From positions 1-24,976 of IMG/VR virus record IMGVR_UViG_3300005511_000854: a DNA stretch of 24,976 nt; one strand, 5' to 3'. The notes beneath the pieces were generated by a model, which was given only the letters and a program-made list of their open reading frames with translations, did no database searches and had not been told where the DNA came from. Both the position numbers and the translations under genes were made by a program. Shown here in pieces: positions 4,337-24,976 of the stretch. The DNA comes from a virus. Position 1 is the stretch's first letter; every line of letters starts with the position of its first letter.

Positions 4337-6054
4337 GCGCGCTTTCCGCGCCGACTTTCCCGGCTTGGCCGCCGGACTATGTTGCCGAGCTGATGACACG
4401 GCAGCATCGGTTGCGGCGGCTGAAGGCGGATATGGGGCTGCGCGCCGGACTGGCCGAGCGGTATCGCAAGGATCCGGCCGGGTGGATCGCGCATTGGGCA
4501 GTGACGTACGACCCGCGCAAGGCGGCGAGCGATGCGCCGACCGTGATGCCGTTCGTGCCTTTTCCCCGCCAGATCGAGATGATCGCATTCCTGCACGCCT
4601 GTGTCGACCAGCAGCAGAGCGGGTTGATCGAAAAGGCGCGCGATATGGGCGCGACATGGCTGGCCTGCTCCTTTTCGGTGTGGTTGTGGCTATACAGGCC
4701 GGGTGCCGCCATAGGCTGGGGTTCCCGCAAGGAGCAATTGGTCGACAAAATTGGCGACCCCGACAGCATCTTCGAAAAGATGCGGATCATCATCCGCCAC
4801 TTGCCGCGGTTGATGCTGCCGGCCGGGTTCGACCCCCGCGACGACATGCCGAGCATGAAGATCATCAACCGCGCGAGCGGCGCCACGATCACCGGCGAGT
4901 CCGGCGACAATATCGGGCGCGGCGGGCGCAAGCTGATCTATTTCAAGGACGAGAGCGCCCATTACGAACGACCCGAGAAGATCGAGGCGGCGTTGGCCGA
5001 CACGACCAACGTGCAGATCGACATGAGCTCGGTCAACGGACCGGGTAATGTGTTCCATCGCCGGCGCGAAAGCGGGACCGAATGGGTGCCGGGCGCTGCG
5101 CTCGCCACCAATCGAGTCAATGTGTTCGTGATGGATTGGCGCGATCATCCCGCCAAGGACGCCGCCTGGTATGCGGAACGGCGCGCCAAGGCGGCGGCGG
5201 ACGGGCTGCTCCACGTCTTCGCGCAGGAAGTCGATCGCAATTACACCGCCGGGGTCGAAGGGATCATCATCCCCGGCGACTGGGTGGCGAGCGCGATCGA
5301 CGCGCATGTCGCGCTCGGGTTCGACGACGAAGGCGCGTGGCGTGCCGCGTTGGATCCTGCGGATGAGGGAGGCGACCGGCATGCGCTGGCCATCGCCAAG
5401 GGATCGGTCATCCATTCCGTCGACGATTGGGGTGAAGGCGATGTCGGCAAGGCGACGCGGCTGGCCGTCGACCGACTGCGCGGACGGACGGTGGCACTGC
5501 AGTACGACAGTATCGGCGTTGGCGCGGGGGTAAAGGCGGAAGCCAATCGGCTGCGCGATGAGGTGGACTCGGACGGGCGCGCATTGCTGCCGACGGGCAT
5601 TACGTTCCGGCCCTGGAATGCCGGCGCCGCGCCGCTTCGGCCGCGCGAGCATGTCGTGCCGGGCGATTGCGAAACGCCGATCAACGCCGATTTCTACGCG
5701 AACCTAAAGGCACAGGCCTGGTGGCAATTGCGACTGCGCTTCGAGCGGACGCACAAGGCAGTGACGGAGGGTGAAATTTACGACCCTGCCGATCTGATCA
5801 GCCTACCGCGCGATATGCCGGCGCTGGCATCGCTGCGGAAGGAATTGAGCCAGGCGACGCGCGCGGTGAACGGCGCGTTGAAACTGGTCGTCGACAAGAA
5901 GCCGGAAGGCACGAGGTCACCTAATAAGGCCGATGCGCTAGTGATGGCATTCTGGCCGGCGGAGGAGGCGGTGGCGTCGGCGGGGTTTCTGGACTTGGTG
6001 CGGAGGACGAACGCGACCGGGCGAGCACAGATTGATGAAGCACCGCAAAGTTAA
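4333..6054 (+). CDS. Terminase large subunit (packaging ATPase/nuclease), 573 aa
   Basis: TerL pumps DNA into the prohead and cuts concatemers. The ATPase half carries a deviant Walker A, 'EKARDMGATWL' (residues 100-110), of the R-x-x-G-x-(S/T) terminase type. The Walker B is 'LIYFKDE' (201-207), with D206 and catalytic E207. The C-terminal RNase H-like nuclease has candidate metal-binding acids at D341/D348 (first strand, 'DPADEGGDRHALAI'), D392 ('LQYDSIGVGAG') and D534 ('NKADALVMAF'). Length is typical. The GTG start overlaps the terS stop, implying translational coupling. Both catalytic centres look intact. Confidence 0.93.
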   Translation: MSALSAPTFPAWPPDYVAELMTRQHRLRRLKADMGLRAGLAERYRKDPAGWIAHWAVTYDPRKAASDAPTVMPFVPFPRQIEMIAFLHACVDQQQSGLIEKARDMGATWLACSFSVWLWLYRPGAAIGWGSRKEQLVDKIGDPDSIFEKMRIIIRHLPRLMLPAGFDPRDDMPSMKIINRASGATITGESGDNIGRGGRKLIYFKDESAHYERPEKIEAALADTTNVQIDMSSVNGPGNVFHRRRESGTEWVPGAALATNRVNVFVMDWRDHPAKDAAWYAERRAKAAADGLLHVFAQEVDRNYTAGVEGIIIPGDWVASAIDAHVALGFDDEGAWRAALDPADEGGDRHALAIAKGSVIHSVDDWGEGDVGKATRLAVDRLRGRTVALQYDSIGVGAGVKAEANRLRDEVDSDGRALLPTGITFRPWNAGAAPLRPREHVVPGDCETPINADFYANLKAQAWWQLRLRFERTHKAVTEGEIYDPADLISLPRDMPALASLRKELSQATRAVNGALKLVVDKKPEGTRSPNKADALVMAFWPAEEAVASAGFLDLVRRTNATGRAQIDEAPQS

Positions 6055-18992: not shown

Positions 18993-19121
18993 CCCAACCT
19001 GCGGTTCTGAAATCGCGAACCGAAACGCATTGTGCGGAGCGCGTCAGCGACACCGCGACGGCGACGACCTTGTGCCCGGCCGCTCCCGAGGATCAGCGCA
19101 GCCATTCGATTGGAGACGAGA

Positions 19122-19778
19122 TTGCCCACGCTCTATCTACCGACACGCTGGCTCGTCACATCCGATCCGTCGATCGACGACCCAGACGTGTTTCCAACGC
19201 TGATCGGACAGTCGTTCCTGATCGCAAAGACGCCCACTTGGGCGACGAAGATCGCGACGGCATCGTCGGGCCGCGAGCGCCGGCGCAAGGCCTGGTCCTA
19301 TCCGCGCTGGCAGTTCAAGGTATCCTACGAGGTGTTGCGCGATCTCCCCGCCACGCCCGACCTCGAGCGACTGGCGGCGTTCTTCCTGCTGCACGGCGGG
19401 CAATATCAGGAATTCTTCTTCTTCGATCCAGGGGACAACTCCGTCACCGGACAGAAGTTCGGGATCGGCGACGGAGTAACAACCAAGTTCCAGCTTGTTC
19501 GGAGCATGGCGTTCGGCAGCGCGACCTTTTCCGAGCCGATCGGGAGCGTGCTGGGAACGCCGACCGTGTTTGCCGACGCCACGCCGATCGCGAGCTTCAC
19601 GGTTGGACCGCGCGGATCGATCACCTTCGCCAGCGCGCCCGCGACCGGGAAGATACTGACCTGGACCGGGCGCTTCATGTTCGTGTGTCGCTTCGACGAT
19701 GACGCACTCGAGCTCAACCAGATGATGCAGAGCCTGTGGTCGCAGGACGGGCTCTCCTTCACCACCACCAAGGCCTGA
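19122..19778 (+). CDS. DUF2460 tail-tip protein (distal tail-like), 218 aa
   Basis: Members of DUF2460 (Rhodobacter GTA Rcc01695 relatives) form the distal tail ring that joins tube to hub. Support: 'AWSYPRWQFKVSYEVLRD' (residues about 56-73), the diagnostic 'ERLAAFFLLHGGQYQEFFFF' followed by DPGD, then 'GIGDGVTTKFQLVR', and a C-terminal 'RFMFVCRFDDDALELNQM'. The start is TTG 19122, preceded by TGGAG at 19111-19115; the in-frame extension to 19032 is rejected because it is Arg-rich and unlike the family. Order DUF2460, DUF2163, NlpC/P60, hub is conserved in GTAs and many alphaproteobacterial phages. Confidence 0.88.
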   Translation: MPTLYLPTRWLVTSDPSIDDPDVFPTLIGQSFLIAKTPTWATKIATASSGRERRRKAWSYPRWQFKVSYEVLRDLPATPDLERLAAFFLLHGGQYQEFFFFDPGDNSVTGQKFGIGDGVTTKFQLVRSMAFGSATFSEPIGSVLGTPTVFADATPIASFTVGPRGSITFASAPATGKILTWTGRFMFVCRFDDDALELNQMMQSLWSQDGLSFTTTKA

Positions 19779-19780
19779 CC

Positions 19781-20647
19781 ATGAAAGCTGCATCGCCTGC
19801 GTTGATCGCCTTGCTTAACAGCGGCGAGGATTTCCAGATGGTCGATCTGTGGACGATCACGCTGGTCGGCGGCGCCGTCATCAGATGGTCGGGCGGTGAT
19901 GTCCCGATCGTATCGGGCGGTCATGTCTATGCACTCGGTCCGCTGATCGAGCGGCAGGATATCAGCGAGAAGATCGGGCTCGACGTCACGACCGTCGACA
20001 TGGCGATCACCGCTAATCCGGACGATCTGATCAATGGCGTGCCGATCATCCCGTTCATCCGGGGACATGGATTCGATGGCGCGAATGTCCGGCTTGATCG
20101 TGCCTTCCTGACCGATTGGAGCTTGCCAGTGGTCGGCACGGTGCTGAGGTTTTCGGGACGCGTTACCGCGATCAGCGCGATCACGGGCGACGGCGCCACA
20201 ATCACGGTGTCGTCCTGGACCGTATTGCTCAACGCCAACATGCCGGCCAACCTTTATCAGGCGGCCTGTCTGCATGCGGTCTACGATGCCGGCTGCGCGC
20301 TTAATCCGACCGCCTTCGCGGTCACCGGCACAATCGGCGCATCGCCGGCGCCGACGCTCACAATGTTCGACACCAGCCTGACGCCGCCGGCCAATGATTT
20401 CGCGCAAGGGCGGATCGTGTTCACATCCGGACCGAATACCGGCGTCTCTGCGACAATCATGGCCAACGACGGTGCGGGCCTGTTCCAACTCGTCTCGCCC
20501 CTCCCCGCTTTGCCGGTCGCCGGCAACACCTTCACCGCCTATCCGGGGTGCGATCTGACGCAGAGCCGGTGTTCCGTCCGCTTCAACAATCTCGGGCGGT
20601 TCAAGGCGACGCCGTACGTCCCGGTGCCGGAAACGGCGTTCGGATGA
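19781..20647 (+). CDS. DUF2163 / BR0599-type tail-tip protein, gpL-like with four cluster cysteines, 288 aa
   Basis: This is a DUF2163 N-terminal domain with a BR0599-type C-terminal domain, equivalent to Rhodobacter GTA Rcc01696 and related to lambda gpL. Family segments are 'KAASPALIALLNSGEDFQMV' at the N-terminus and 'YPGCDLTQSRCSVRFNNLGR' near the C-terminus. It has Cys163, Cys172, Cys257 and Cys264: spacing of 9 within the first pair and 7 within the second. As I recall, this equals the spacing of the [4Fe-4S] ligands in lambda gpL, so an iron-sulfur cluster is likely. An insertion of about 60 residues between the pairs (about 178-245) looks like a small beta domain. ATG 19781 is chosen over upstream starts, which overlap DUF2460. 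The ATG of the next gene overlaps its stop. Confidence 0.88.
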   Translation: MKAASPALIALLNSGEDFQMVDLWTITLVGGAVIRWSGGDVPIVSGGHVYALGPLIERQDISEKIGLDVTTVDMAITANPDDLINGVPIIPFIRGHGFDGANVRLDRAFLTDWSLPVVGTVLRFSGRVTAISAITGDGATITVSSWTVLLNANMPANLYQAACLHAVYDAGCALNPTAFAVTGTIGASPAPTLTMFDTSLTPPANDFAQGRIVFTSGPNTGVSATIMANDGAGLFQLVSPLPALPVAGNTFTAYPGCDLTQSRCSVRFNNLGRFKATPYVPVPETAFG

Positions 20648-21072
20648 CGCGCGCGGATGTGGTGCGCGAAGCACTCGGTTGGGAGGGAACGCCATACCAT
20701 CATCGGGCGCGGTTGCGCGGCGTGGGGGTAGACTGCGCGATGCTGCCGGCGGCGGTCTTTGAAGCGGTTGGGCTGATCCCGCGGGTCGAGCCTGATTACT
20801 CGCCGCAATGGATGCTGCATCGTGACGAGGAGCAGTTCCTGGGCTGGGTCACGCGGTTCGCGCGCGAGATCCCGCGCGCGACCGTCGGACCCGGCGACCT
20901 CGCGATCTGGAAGTATGGCCGCTGCTATTCGCATGCGGCGATCGTCATCGACCTGCCCGACGTGCTGCACGCGGTGATCCGTGGCGGCGGCGTCGTGCGC
21001 GGCAATGCCGACCGCGACGAGGAGCTGCGCTCCCGGCCGGTCAAATTCTTCACCTTGTTCGAGGACCAATGA
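20644..21072 (+). CDS. NlpC/P60 family peptidase of the tail tip, 142 aa
   Basis: Cysteine peptidase that cleaves peptidoglycan stem peptides, placed at the tail tip to help DNA entry (gpK/Rcc01697 equivalent). Catalytic Cys31 is in 'RGVGVDCAMLPAAVFE', His97 in 'GRCYSHAAIVID' and the third residue is probably His109 in 'VLHAVIRGG'. The conserved 'VGPGDLAIWK' strand precedes the His. Length matches the minimal domain without extra modules. The ATG overlaps the stop of DUF2163 and its own stop overlaps the hub start, so the tail-tip genes are translationally coupled. Confidence 0.9.
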   Translation: MTRADVVREALGWEGTPYHHRARLRGVGVDCAMLPAAVFEAVGLIPRVEPDYSPQWMLHRDEEQFLGWVTRFAREIPRATVGPGDLAIWKYGRCYSHAAIVIDLPDVLHAVIRGGGVVRGNADRDEELRSRPVKFFTLFEDQ

Positions 21073-24008
21073 TGGGCGGCAAGTCTACCTCGACCACATC
21101 ACCGAAGCTCAACGGGCTGCAGGTCCAATCGTCTACCCTGGGCCTGCCGATCTCGCTTGGCTGGGGTCGTGGCCGGATGAAGTGCAACCTCATCTGGTAC
21201 AACGCTTTCACGGCGATCCCGCATACGACCAAGACCAGTGCAGGCAAGGGCCTGGGCGGTGGATCGAAGAACACGACCTACACCTATACCGCCTCGATCA
21301 TCATGGGCATCTGCGAAGGCGGCGCGAGCGGCATTCAAGGGATCCGCACGATCTACAAGGATACTGCGGTGCTGACGACGCTCTCGACCGCCGGGCTGAG
21401 CCTGGCAACGGGCGCGGCTACCCAGCCCGTCTGGGGCTATCTGACGTCCAAATTCCCCGCTCAGGCGATCAATTATTCCGGCATCGCCTATGTCTATGCC
21501 CAGGATTACGATCTTGCCGACAGCGCCACCCTGTCCAACCATAGCTTCGAGATCGACTTTGCCACGCAGCTCGGCAGCGGCGTGTGCGATGCCGATCCGA
21601 AGGATATCATCGCCGATTTCCTGACCAACCCCGCTTATGGCGTGCCGATGTGGGGGGCGGGCCTGATCGGCGACCTGTCCGATTATTCGCTCTATTGCCG
21701 CGCCAACAACCTGCTGCTTTCGCCAATGCTCGAATCGCAGTCGAGCGCGGCATCGATCCTGGAGGAATGGCTGACCGCGACCAACGCGGCGGTCTATTGG
21801 TCGGAAGGGATGCTCAAGATCAGGCCGTATGGCGATGCCGCGGCGACGGGCAATTCGGTGACATGGACGCCCAACCTGACGCCCATGTACGACCTGACCG
21901 AGGACGATCTGGTGGTCGACGACAGCGGCAACGCCGTCTCGATCGAGATCGTCGACCAGTCCGACGCCTATAACATCGTCCAGTTCGAATTCCTGGATCG
22001 CAGCCAGCAATATAATGTCGGCATCGCGACCGCCCAGGACCTCGACAACATCGTCACCTATGGCCGGCGCAAACAGGACCCGACCACGGTCCATTGCATC
22101 TGCGACGCGGCGATCGCGCGCAAGGCGGTCCAGCTTTATGGCCAGCGCGTGCTCTACACGCGGGAGAAATACACGTTCAAACTGCCGTGGAACTTCGCGC
22201 TGCTCGAGCCGACCGATCTCGTCACGCTAACGACCGCGACCGACTCGCTCTCGCTCAACCGCGTGCTGGTGCGGATCACCGAGATTGGCGAGGACGCCGA
22301 CGGACTGCTGTCGATCACTGCCGAGGGCGTGCCGGTCGGAACCGCGTCGGCCGCGCTCTATGCCTCGCATTCGAGCGGACCCGATCGGCAGCCCAATGCG
22401 GCGGACACTCCAGGCTCGGTTTCGACGCCTGCCCTGATCAATGCGCCAACCTCGCTCACCAATGACGATCCGGAGATATGGTGCGCTGTCGCGTCGTCGT
22501 CTCCGAATTGGGGTGGCTGCGAAATTTGGGTGAGTGTCGATAACGTCACCTATTCGCGCGCGGGCACGATCAACGGCCCGGCGCGCTATGGCGTGCTGAC
22601 GGCGGCGCTGGCCAGCCATGCCGATCCGGACACGGCGAACACGCTCGCGGTCGATCTCACAGCATCACGCGGCGAGCTCGGTTCGGCGACGGCGGCCGAG
22701 GCCAATGCTGGTGGTTCGCTATGCATGGTCGGCGACGAGTTGGTCACTTATCAGACCGCGACGCTGACCGGGGCCGGCACTTATAACCTGACGACCTTGC
22801 GCCGCGGATTCGCTGGGACGTTGCCGGCAAGCCATGCCGTCGGCCAGCGCTTCATCCGGCTCGACGATGCCGTGTTCAAGTTCAGCTATGCGAGCCTCAA
22901 TGTCGGCTCGACAATCTACGTCAAATTCCCGTCGTTCAACATCTTCGGCCAGGAGATCGAGGATTTGTCGGCGCTGTCGCCTTATACGGTCTCGCTTACG
23001 CCCTCGACGGCGCTGCCCGATCCGGTCACCGGCCTGGCGCTTGCCCATGCCTGGGACGGCAGTTCGCTGTCGGTCGTGTGCGATCCGTCGGCGCGCGCCG
23101 TCACCTACAAATTCCGCTTCTATCTGGCCGACCGGACCACGCTCAAGCGCGAGATCGTGACGTCCACCCCGGCGGCGACCTATACCTCGGCGCTGGCGGC
23201 GCAGGACGGCGTGAGCCGGGTCTATCATGTCGAGGTCATCGCCTCGAACGCGGCGGGAGACGCGCCGCCGTCATCCTGGCTGGTCGTCACCAACAATGCT
23301 CCGCCCGCAGTGTCGTCGCCGGCGGCGACCGGCGGCACGACCAACGGCACGATGACATGCACCGCCTCGAGCGACCCGGATCTCGCCGGCTATGTCATGT
23401 TCTATTCGTCGACCAGCGGCTTCAATCCCTCCACCTCGGGCGGAGTGCTGTCGGCGGGCATTCCGTCTATCACGGTCTATGGGTTGGCGGCCGGTACCTA
23501 TTATGGGCGCATCGCCGCCTATGACGGCTGGACCGCTGATCCCGCGTTCCTCAATTTGTCGGCCGAACAGACGTTCACCATCTCCACCGGCGGCGGCAGT
23601 TCGCCGGGCGGAGGCGGCGATGGCGGGGGCGGCTATAACGGCCGCTGCGTCATCGATTCAGCGCTGATCCTGATGGCCGACGCCGAGCGTTCCGGGCCCG
23701 GTATCCAGAAGCCGGCATCGGCGGTCGAAGTGGGCGACTGGGTTTGGACGCAACACGAAATCACGCGGGCATGGGGCGCTTATCCGGTCACGGCGATCTC
23801 GTTCTCGCTCGACCCGGTGTTCGCCGCCGACGGTTATCCCGAGGCAACGCCGCGTCACCGGTTCTGGCGCGACCGCTGGATGATGATGGAAGAGATCGGT
23901 GTCGCCGCCGGCGAAGCGCGCGTCGCCAAGATCACCGTCGGCGACGCCCATACCTACGTGTCCGATGGCGTGCTGTCGCACAATTACAAAGTGCAGCCGA
24001 CGCTATAG
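21069..24008 (+). CDS. Tail hub/host-specificity protein with two FN3-like modules and C-terminal Hint domain, 979 aa
   Basis: The N-terminal 430 residues are the phage tail hub (Phage-tail_3/gpJ-like), with 'SLGWGRGRMKCNLIWYNAF', 'YGVPMWGAGLIGDLSDYSLY' and 'NIVQFEFLDRSQQYNVGIA'. The TIM-barrel of the Rhodobacter GTA megatron is absent. Residues about 440-645 are a beta-rich region with 'YQTATLTGAGTYNLTTLRRG'. Two FN3-like modules (about 648-745 and 750-838) follow. A Gly-rich linker (841-859) leads to a Hint domain. Cys860 begins block A ('CVIDSALILMAD'), then 'VEVGDWV' (886-892), block B 'ATPRHRFW' with T927 and H930, and blocks F/G 'DAHTYVSDGVLSHN' ending H971-N972. Seven residues remain (YKVQPTL). 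Hint domains self-cleave or splice; the +1 residue here is Tyr, so ordinary splicing is unlikely and autocleavage or another acyl transfer is more plausible. Confidence 0.88.
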   Translation: MMGGKSTSTTSPKLNGLQVQSSTLGLPISLGWGRGRMKCNLIWYNAFTAIPHTTKTSAGKGLGGGSKNTTYTYTASIIMGICEGGASGIQGIRTIYKDTAVLTTLSTAGLSLATGAATQPVWGYLTSKFPAQAINYSGIAYVYAQDYDLADSATLSNHSFEIDFATQLGSGVCDADPKDIIADFLTNPAYGVPMWGAGLIGDLSDYSLYCRANNLLLSPMLESQSSAASILEEWLTATNAAVYWSEGMLKIRPYGDAAATGNSVTWTPNLTPMYDLTEDDLVVDDSGNAVSIEIVDQSDAYNIVQFEFLDRSQQYNVGIATAQDLDNIVTYGRRKQDPTTVHCICDAAIARKAVQLYGQRVLYTREKYTFKLPWNFALLEPTDLVTLTTATDSLSLNRVLVRITEIGEDADGLLSITAEGVPVGTASAALYASHSSGPDRQPNAADTPGSVSTPALINAPTSLTNDDPEIWCAVASSSPNWGGCEIWVSVDNVTYSRAGTINGPARYGVLTAALASHADPDTANTLAVDLTASRGELGSATAAEANAGGSLCMVGDELVTYQTATLTGAGTYNLTTLRRGFAGTLPASHAVGQRFIRLDDAVFKFSYASLNVGSTIYVKFPSFNIFGQEIEDLSALSPYTVSLTPSTALPDPVTGLALAHAWDGSSLSVVCDPSARAVTYKFRFYLADRTTLKREIVTSTPAATYTSALAAQDGVSRVYHVEVIASNAAGDAPPSSWLVVTNNAPPAVSSPAATGGTTNGTMTCTASSDPDLAGYVMFYSSTSGFNPSTSGGVLSAGIPSITVYGLAAGTYYGRIAAYDGWTADPAFLNLSAEQTFTISTGGGSSPGGGGDGGGGYNGRCVIDSALILMADAERSGPGIQKPASAVEVGDWVWTQHEITRAWGAYPVTAISFSLDPVFAADGYPEATPRHRFWRDRWMMMEEIGVAAGEARVAKITVGDAHTYVSDGVLSHNYKVQPTL

Positions 24009-24043
24009 CCCCCCTCACCTCGCAGCCCCGAAAGGCCGCTTTG

Positions 24044-24976
24044 ATGCAATATTACGAGTTCATCGCCTCCCGTGGCGACACGGGGGCCGTGTTGCCGCTT
24101 GCCAAGGTCACCGTGTTTCTGGCGGGTACGACGACGTTGGCATCGATCTTCGACAATACCGGTGCCGGCCTGACCAATCCGATGACGGCGGCGATATCCG
24201 GGCTGGCGGGGTTCGCCGCGGCCAACGGCGCCTATGACGTTCAGATAGCATCGGCGGACGGATCGTATCTTGCGCCAAAGGTGCACGATCTGCAGCTTTA
24301 CGACCTGACGCAGTTGGATGCGCAGGTGGCCACGGTTACGGCGGCCATGACCTCTCCCGGCTTCGTTGCGGTCGTCGCCGACCTGGCGCTCGGCGCAGCG
24401 AGCAAGATCGGGACCGTGGCTGCAGATCTGTTGAGCGGCGCCAGCAATATTGCGCTGGTGGCGGCGGATTTGGCTTTGGGCGGAGCGTCGCTGATCAGAC
24501 AGGCGATATCGAGCGCGGCGGCAGCGGCGTCTTCTGCTGCGGCGGCGGCAGCGAGTGCGGCCTCGGTCGGATGGTGGTTTCGGGGCCCGCCGGGCTTCGC
24601 CCTTACCGACTCTGCCGGCTATCGTTGGCTCAATATAACGCTCTCCGACATCAAACACGCCGCCGTCGATCTGATCAAGTCACGTCTAACTGCGATGGAG
24701 ACATACGCGGCGAAGATGCCGCTCATCGGTACGCCGGGCCTTGCATCGTGGACGCTCACTGACAGCAACGGCTATAATTGGCTGAAGATCACCCCCACCA
24801 CTCTGCAGCACAAGGTCATTGAGGCGATGTCGAACCGGATCGTAGCAGCCCTTCGCGGGCCTGCCGATCCGTCGATCGCCAACATGCGCATCATCGCCGA
24901 ACGTATCGGCCTACATGTCTCAGGGGAATCGCTATCACTTGGACACGGCTCACCCGTCGTGTCGATCGGCACCAGC
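24044..24976 (+). CDS. Tail fibre / receptor-binding protein, N-terminal 311 aa (partial)
   Basis: The frame is open from ATG 24044 (GAAAGG upstream) to the last base, so the gene continues outside the window. Residues 1-100 ('YYEFIASRGDTGAVLPLAKV') resemble fibre attachment domains with a beta-rich fold. Residues about 115-165 carry three near-repeats of 'VAADLALGGAS', followed by an Ala/Ser-rich helix (about 152-176). Two 51-residue-spaced copies of LTDSxGYxWLxIT occur at residues 187-199 and 238-250. The visible C-terminus, 'SLSLGHGSPVVSIGTS', could open a further domain, for instance an SGNH-type hydrolase whose first strand ends in G-(D/T)-S, but too little is visible to claim it. Probably recognises the host surface. 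Confidence 0.8.
   Translation, partial: MQYYEFIASRGDTGAVLPLAKVTVFLAGTTTLASIFDNTGAGLTNPMTAAISGLAGFAAANGAYDVQIASADGSYLAPKVHDLQLYDLTQLDAQVATVTAAMTSPGFVAVVADLALGAASKIGTVAADLLSGASNIALVAADLALGGASLIRQAISSAAAAASSAAAAAASAASVGWWFRGPPGFALTDSAGYRWLNITLSDIKHAAVDLIKSRLTAMETYAAKMPLIGTPGLASWTLTDSNGYNWLKITPTTLQHKVIEAMSNRIVAALRGPADPSIANMRIIAERIGLHVSGESLSLGHGSPVVSIGTS

Follow-up and report, generated by a model that had tools for sequence, protein, structure and literature searches.

The Tail Hub Gene and Its Neighborhood

The window analyzed here is the whole 24,976-nucleotide stretch of viral record IMGVR_UViG_3300005511_000854, and toward its 3′ end lies a gene encoding a 979-aa tail hub protein with its stop codon at 24006-24008 (Table 1). 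The protein matched the Pfam domains Phage-tail_3 (residues 223-406, E = 2e-32) and Rcc01698_C (residues 505-596, E = 4e-20), both above the curated cut-offs, and PHROG tail protein 1101 (E = 2e-114); the match to NCBIfam GTA_megatron was partial (169.5 of 800 bits) and did not reach the equivalog cut-off. By sequence, it is a GTA "megatron"/gpJ-like protein, i.e., a GTA/siphophage tail hub. As a terminase, a portal, a tape measure, and further tail genes are found upstream, we consider the window a siphophage-type fragment. One tail-region gene (19032-19778) has a match to phrog_2913, a family of phage glycoside hydrolases (E = 2e-46), as is also seen in GTA-like tails, and we read the 174-aa ORF directly 5′ of the hub as NlpC/P60-like from its sequence and position. 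The nearest cellular copies of the domain described below come from Sphingomonas (L077, a prophage of S. asaccharolytica NBRC 15499, 92% identical; L078 in S. glacialis, 69%), and the phage host is therefore probably a Sphingomonas.

Table 1. Features of the hub locus, in window coordinates
Feature	Position	Strand	Evidence
174-aa ORF directly 5′ of hub, minor tail protein (phrog_329)	20548..21072	+	PHROG match
Tail hub gene, GTA "megatron"/gpJ-like	21069..24008	+	Phage-tail_3, Rcc01698_C, and PHROG matches
Exchangeable cassette, C-terminal third of hub	22965..24043	+	Gly-rich Gp38-adhesin-type end instead in sister phages
Two fibronectin-III-like (FN3) domains, about residues 647-840	23007..23588	+	AlphaFold2 model of 640-979, PDB matches
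Gly-rich linker, residues 841-859, ending at Arg859	23589..23645	+	Sequence, model
Hint domain, Cys860-Asn972, 113-aa mini-Hint	23646..23984	+	Profiles, model, relatives
Heptapeptide Tyr973-Lys974-Val-Gln-Pro-Thr-Leu979, hub C terminus	23985..24005	+	Sequence
Next gene, tail-fiber-like, N terminus MQYYEFIASRGDTGAV..., cut by window end	24044..24976	+	N terminus common to sister loci

Identification of the Hint Domain

The translation bears out the residues from which the initial annotation had proposed a complete Hint (intein/hedgehog-type) domain: Cys860 (codon TGC, 23646-23648), Thr927-x-x-His930, His961, and His971-Asn972, followed by Tyr973. Searched as a single sequence, the domain gave no Pfam match above a curated cut-off and nothing significant in the Pfam, PHROG, PADLOC, and PDB searches, and its score against NCBIfam intein_Cterm was 15.4 bits with a cut-off of 15.6. 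A plain annotation run would thus miss the domain. Once relatives were aligned, the profile matched both inteins and bacterial intein-like (BIL) domains: the DnaX mini-intein 7cfv (E = 1e-10), BIL2 of Tetrahymena BUBL1 (about 1e-9), the Clostridium thermocellum BIL 2lwy (E = 1.9e-9), and the NpuDnaB intein 4o1r (E = 1.1e-8). Among 47 relatives, 24 matched the Pfam family Intein_splicing and 22 matched PT-HINT at E ≤ 0.1.

The AlphaFold2 model of the domain has a Hint fold (pLDDT 95.3, pTM 0.87) and superimposes on the Ssp DnaB mini-intein 1mi8 with a Z score of 15.2 and an rmsd of 1.8 Å over 110 residues. Z scores to BUBL1 BIL2, hedgehog 1at0, and BIL 2lwy were 14.6, 13.7, and 13.4, respectively, and BUBL1 BIL2 ranked first in Foldseek. 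Cys860, Thr927-x-x-His930 (block B), His961 (block F), and His971-Asn972 all align with the intein blocks, and the segment combines the fold, the N-terminal Cys, and the block-B T-x-x-H of the Hint superfamily. Profile search and structure prediction, the computational checks suggested in the initial annotation, both came out in its favor, and with the modeled fold we regard it as confirmed that hub residues 860-972 form a complete Hint domain. The interval originally given, 23586-24008, does contain the domain, but the Hint starts only at Cys860 (23646) and 23586-23645 is mainly Gly-rich linker.

In a wider model of residues 640-979 (pLDDT 83), two FN3-like domains are followed by the linker, the Hint, and a loose seven-residue tail; the FN3 and Hint parts were each supported separately in the PDB comparison. 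The linker is disordered in the model, with pLDDT below 50 at residues 847-858. The placement of the Hint at the C-terminal end of the hub, behind a flexible linker, was thus described correctly, with only seven residues after Asn972.

Relatives and Conservation of the Catalytic Residues

Viral contigs and prophages yielded 139 distinct Hint domains of nearly full length, collected without selecting for catalytic residues. The set came from five viral-collection scans returning loci, one bacterial-genome scan, and 299 genomes searched from the family to which S. asaccharolytica belongs; five of these genomes had a match, at least one (G105) reading as ordinary PT-HINT. The plasmid collection gave no match, and the annotated phage collection gave one, an unannotated fecal contig 47% identical. 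The catalytic residues were kept almost throughout: Cys1 in 133 of 138, the block-B His in 136 of 139, the penultimate His in 136 of 139, and the terminal Asn in 137 of 139. Against these values of at least 96%, most other positions vary among the relatives, and single block-F residues are lost in some.

After masking of the Hint, the host proteins fell into 28 sequence groups, an approximate number as it comes from single linkage. They include hub-type tail fibers (phrog_5616/1101), phrog_376 tail proteins, lambda gpI-like tail assembly proteins (phrog_32, Pfam Lambda_tail_I), and others. The Hint lies within 25 residues of the C terminus in 77 of the 132 relatives with a visible end. In a midpoint-rooted tree of 95 Hint domains, a supported side (99/97) holds 48 C-terminal domains, the window's included, and a single internal one; the other side holds 41 internal and 5 C-terminal domains. 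The window Hint therefore belongs to a protein-ending lineage. The phage tail proteins with these Hints form a large, apparently undescribed family.

Eight prophages (L212-L215, L217-L219, and L221) share the order TAPK-like gene, gpI-like gene with Hint, J, and next gene (see L210:3631-9843), and in all eight both the gpI-like gene and the gene after J have a C-terminal Hint. The contig of L010 has another gene, an 867-aa frame in which the Hint matches are weak and split (G004:C1:13629-14498), perhaps reflecting an intein in a further phage gene. S. asaccharolytica carries, on a different contig, an additional C-terminal Hint that is divergent and lies in a frame of 375 aa (L093, G001:C23:34416-34796).

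A conserved pattern follows the terminal Asn. At +1, Cys and Ser were found in 0 and Thr in 4 of 137 relatives, while Lys or Arg occupied +1 or +2 in 132 of the 137; at +3 to +8, the K/R rate per site is 7.7%. C-terminal Hints typically read HN-(I/A/L/V/Y)-K, with K at +2 in 82%, and internal Hints HN-K-(S/T), with K at +1 in 82%. In the window hub, this near-invariant basic residue is Lys974. Among the few Sphingomonadales PT-HINT loci readable after HN, K occurs at +1/+2 in two, and HN is followed by Cys or Ala-Cys in the rest; with just a handful of loci, this control is too small to call the lysine phage specific.

Exchange of the C-Terminal Cassette

Over roughly residues 1-648, fifteen complete sister hubs are 74-79% identical to the window hub, but they end in a Gly-rich domain; the one tested, L103, matched the Gp38 adhesin PF05268 above the curated cut-off (E = 1.2e-5). 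At the DNA level, three sister phages match the window at 81-87% identity up to about 22964-22994 and again from 24044. As the flanking identity stops and resumes at these points, we interpret the difference as a clean cassette exchange: in otherwise collinear phages, the FN3-linker-Hint cassette is swapped for a Gp38-type adhesin while the hub body is conserved. A Gly-rich Gp38-type C terminus is found at L101-L118 and L124, a natural adhesin/Hint swap in Sphingomonas-type phages. In T-even phages, Gp38 recognizes receptors. The presence of a Gp38-type adhesin at this place in the sister hubs suggests that the Hint occupies the receptor-facing end.

In 13 of the fifteen Hint-less sisters, the next gene starts with the same type of fiber N terminus as in the window. 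Hint-bearing and Hint-less hubs thus precede the same N terminus, and the Hint is not needed for attaching the next-gene fiber. The earlier suggestion that the hub end might be attached to another tail protein is weakened for this partner, and conjugation of the hub to the next-gene fiber was dropped as a candidate.

Natural Losses and Selection

Some relatives have lost part of the catalytic set. In the related genes of L067, L068, and L070, the Hint stands at the gene start without an N-extein; Cys1 and the block-B His (changed to Asp) are gone and His-Asn is kept. These small genes, at about 4944-6008, continue with HN-K-G-G and Pro-rich sequence. In the four-Hint protein of L165 and its near copies, Hint 1 has kept Cys1 and S-P-T-H and lost His-Asn, and Hint 2, about 15 residues further on, has lost Cys1 and kept His-Asn. 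The complementary losses indicate that the outer junctions survive in such a tandem and the inner ones do not. Four tandem Hints between Pro-rich linkers are seen at L165:2331-5846 and also in L166, L168, L170-L172, and L178-L180. The sequences would fit catalytic residues vanishing where the matching junction no longer matters; as these are just two evolutionary events, the pattern is suggestive rather than conclusive.

Among close hubs, dN/dS was 0.07-0.33 for the Hint and 0.05-0.18 for hub residues 1-648. The Hint is thus under purifying selection, with a constraint somewhat weaker than that on the hub body.

Comparison with Known Systems

A-type BIL domains are defined by a terminal His-Asn and the lack of a +1 nucleophile (PMC7765530, PMC7664689), and in BIL domains lacking that nucleophile N- and C-cleavage predominates (PMC7664689). 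The window Hint keeps His-Asn and has Tyr973 at +1 in place of Cys, Ser, or Thr, in line with the BIL-like rather than splicing-intein layout recognized at the outset; its His971-Asn972 separates it from B-type BILs, which lack the C-terminal His-Asn. With the A-type BIL of C. thermocellum (2lwy), it shares the fold, the N-terminal Cys, the terminal His-Asn, and the absence of a +1 Cys/Ser. It differs in being short (113 aa) with a near-invariant Lys at +1/+2, and in ending a phage tail protein, whereas A-type BILs have been described in variable, nonconserved bacterial proteins.

The closest domain by Foldseek, BUBL1 BIL2 (6y75/6tmm), comes from a eukaryotic locus, where it is flanked on either side by Ubl domains, whereas the window protein has no Ubl and an FN3 pair precedes its Hint. 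A parallel to BUBL exists only in relatives such as L061/L062, in which Lambda_tail_I precedes the Hint; the gpI protein family has a Ub-like domain (PMC1779556). Mini-inteins (Ssp and Npu DnaB, Spl DnaX) resemble the domain in fold and splicing-block residues, but the window Hint is C-terminal and has neither a +1 nucleophile nor an insertion into a conserved site. PT-HINT (PF07591) shares the fold and a weak profile match in relatives but is followed by a toxin that the window Hint lacks. The hedgehog (Hog) sterol-recognition region is absent, as the protein ends seven residues after Asn972 and leaves no room for it. With the Gp38 adhesin (PF05268), an unrelated Gly-rich domain, only the cassette position is shared.

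Predicted Self-Processing and Alternative Explanations

The retention of the catalytic residues across the family suggests that these tails probably cut or rejoin their own ends. The last 120 residues of the hub probably make up a catalytically competent Hint of the A-type-BIL-like kind, which self-processing is predicted to separate from the hub. In a newly made hub, Cys860 would take over the Arg859-Cys860 bond as a thioester, assisted by the block-B His930, and Asn972 would cyclize, the cut falling before Tyr973. Without Cys, Ser, or Thr at +1, the thioester would be resolved by an amine or by water and the Hint would leave the hub. The Gly-rich hub end would stay free or join a nearby amine, for which the alpha-amine of Tyr973, the side chain of the conserved Lys974, and another protein are candidates. 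Where sister phages have a receptor-binding adhesin, this phage would then end in a processed tail tip. Against this reading, catalytic residues can stay conserved in a fold after the expected reaction has been lost, or serve a different one, and the seven-residue tail makes C-terminal cleavage alone look trivial here.

It is an attractive possibility that an amine, perhaps that of Lys974, resolves the thioester: BUBL1 BIL2, the top Foldseek match, reportedly transfers to lysine in a reaction ending in an isopeptide bond (PMC8616854), and Lys974 is thus a candidate acceptor. This residue could just as well have a structural or electrostatic function. Only tentatively do we propose the more specific outcome that the conserved +1/+2 lysine resolves the thioester into a branched, isopeptide-linked tail end and, in gpI-type relatives, acts on a protein with a ubiquitin-like domain.

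The position at the receptor-facing end, equivalent to that of the Gp38-type adhesin, would also suit a Hint that the mature tail retains in a thioester-loaded state and that passes the hub end on to an amine or alcohol of the host surface or of a partner tail protein, giving covalent adsorption or crosslinking. BUBL1 BIL2, closest by Foldseek, links the domain upstream of it to lysine residues on other proteins (PMC8616854), and the FN3 pair preceding the Hint resembles, among other FN3 proteins, the lambda central tail fiber gpJ (8xci). We nevertheless find such a covalent tip unlikely: a thioester kept in store is lost to hydrolysis, neither the conserved Asn nor the short tail with its Lys would be needed, and the shared fiber N terminus of Hint-less sisters speaks against the next-gene fiber as the partner. 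The adhesin-like position and the absence of single block-F residues in some relatives would equally agree with a fold that serves for binding or capping only, its catalysis vestigial. This, too, seems quite unlikely, as Cys1, the block-B His, and His-Asn stand out among otherwise variable positions and their losses follow whether or not the matching junction is there.

The DnaB and DnaX mini-inteins are the closest by profile and fold, but that the domain is a selfish mini-intein, or the remnant of one, that normally splices is very improbable: the +1 position lacks Cys and Ser in 137 relatives, 77 relatives lie within 25 residues of the C terminus, and the Hint sits behind linkers in the 28 host-protein groups rather than in conserved active sites. 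A plain, class 1 splicing intein was rejected because the tails are short and a +1 nucleophile is missing: in the hub, Tyr973 stands at +1 and just seven residues resume after Asn972. Still less likely is the release of a C-terminal toxin by a PT-HINT, which we hold to be extremely improbable despite the weak PF07591 matches of 22 of the 47 relatives. In HINT-toxin architectures, the toxin is located after the domain (PMC3482391); with only seven residues following the Hint here there is no toxin to release, and the short tails of the 77 relatives led us to reject this candidate.

Novelty and Implications

Inteins are known from phage enzymes such as the phiCbK TerL (PMC3556154) and from mycobacteriophages (PMC5050341), and some phage proteins already have "Hint" in their database names. 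In the open-access literature searched, inteins were described for terminases and replication proteins of phages, and no Hint in tail proteins was found; within the same scope, we found no description of the conserved +1/+2 lysine or of self-processing of phage tails by Hint chemistry.

As the family is large and includes natural half-active mutants, it opens the persistence of BIL-like domains to direct testing. A domain with a near-invariant Lys that needs no +1 Cys, Ser, or Thr for cleavage or ligation could become a protein-conjugation tool. If the proposed reaction of the +1/+2 lysine is true, it would be a prokaryotic-virus counterpart of the BUBL BIL reaction and, for the gpI-type relatives, would hint at Hint-driven ubiquitin-like conjugation in phage tails. 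If the Hint is active, the tip of the virion would differ from the tip read from the sequence, which bears on the annotation of receptor binding and on host range.
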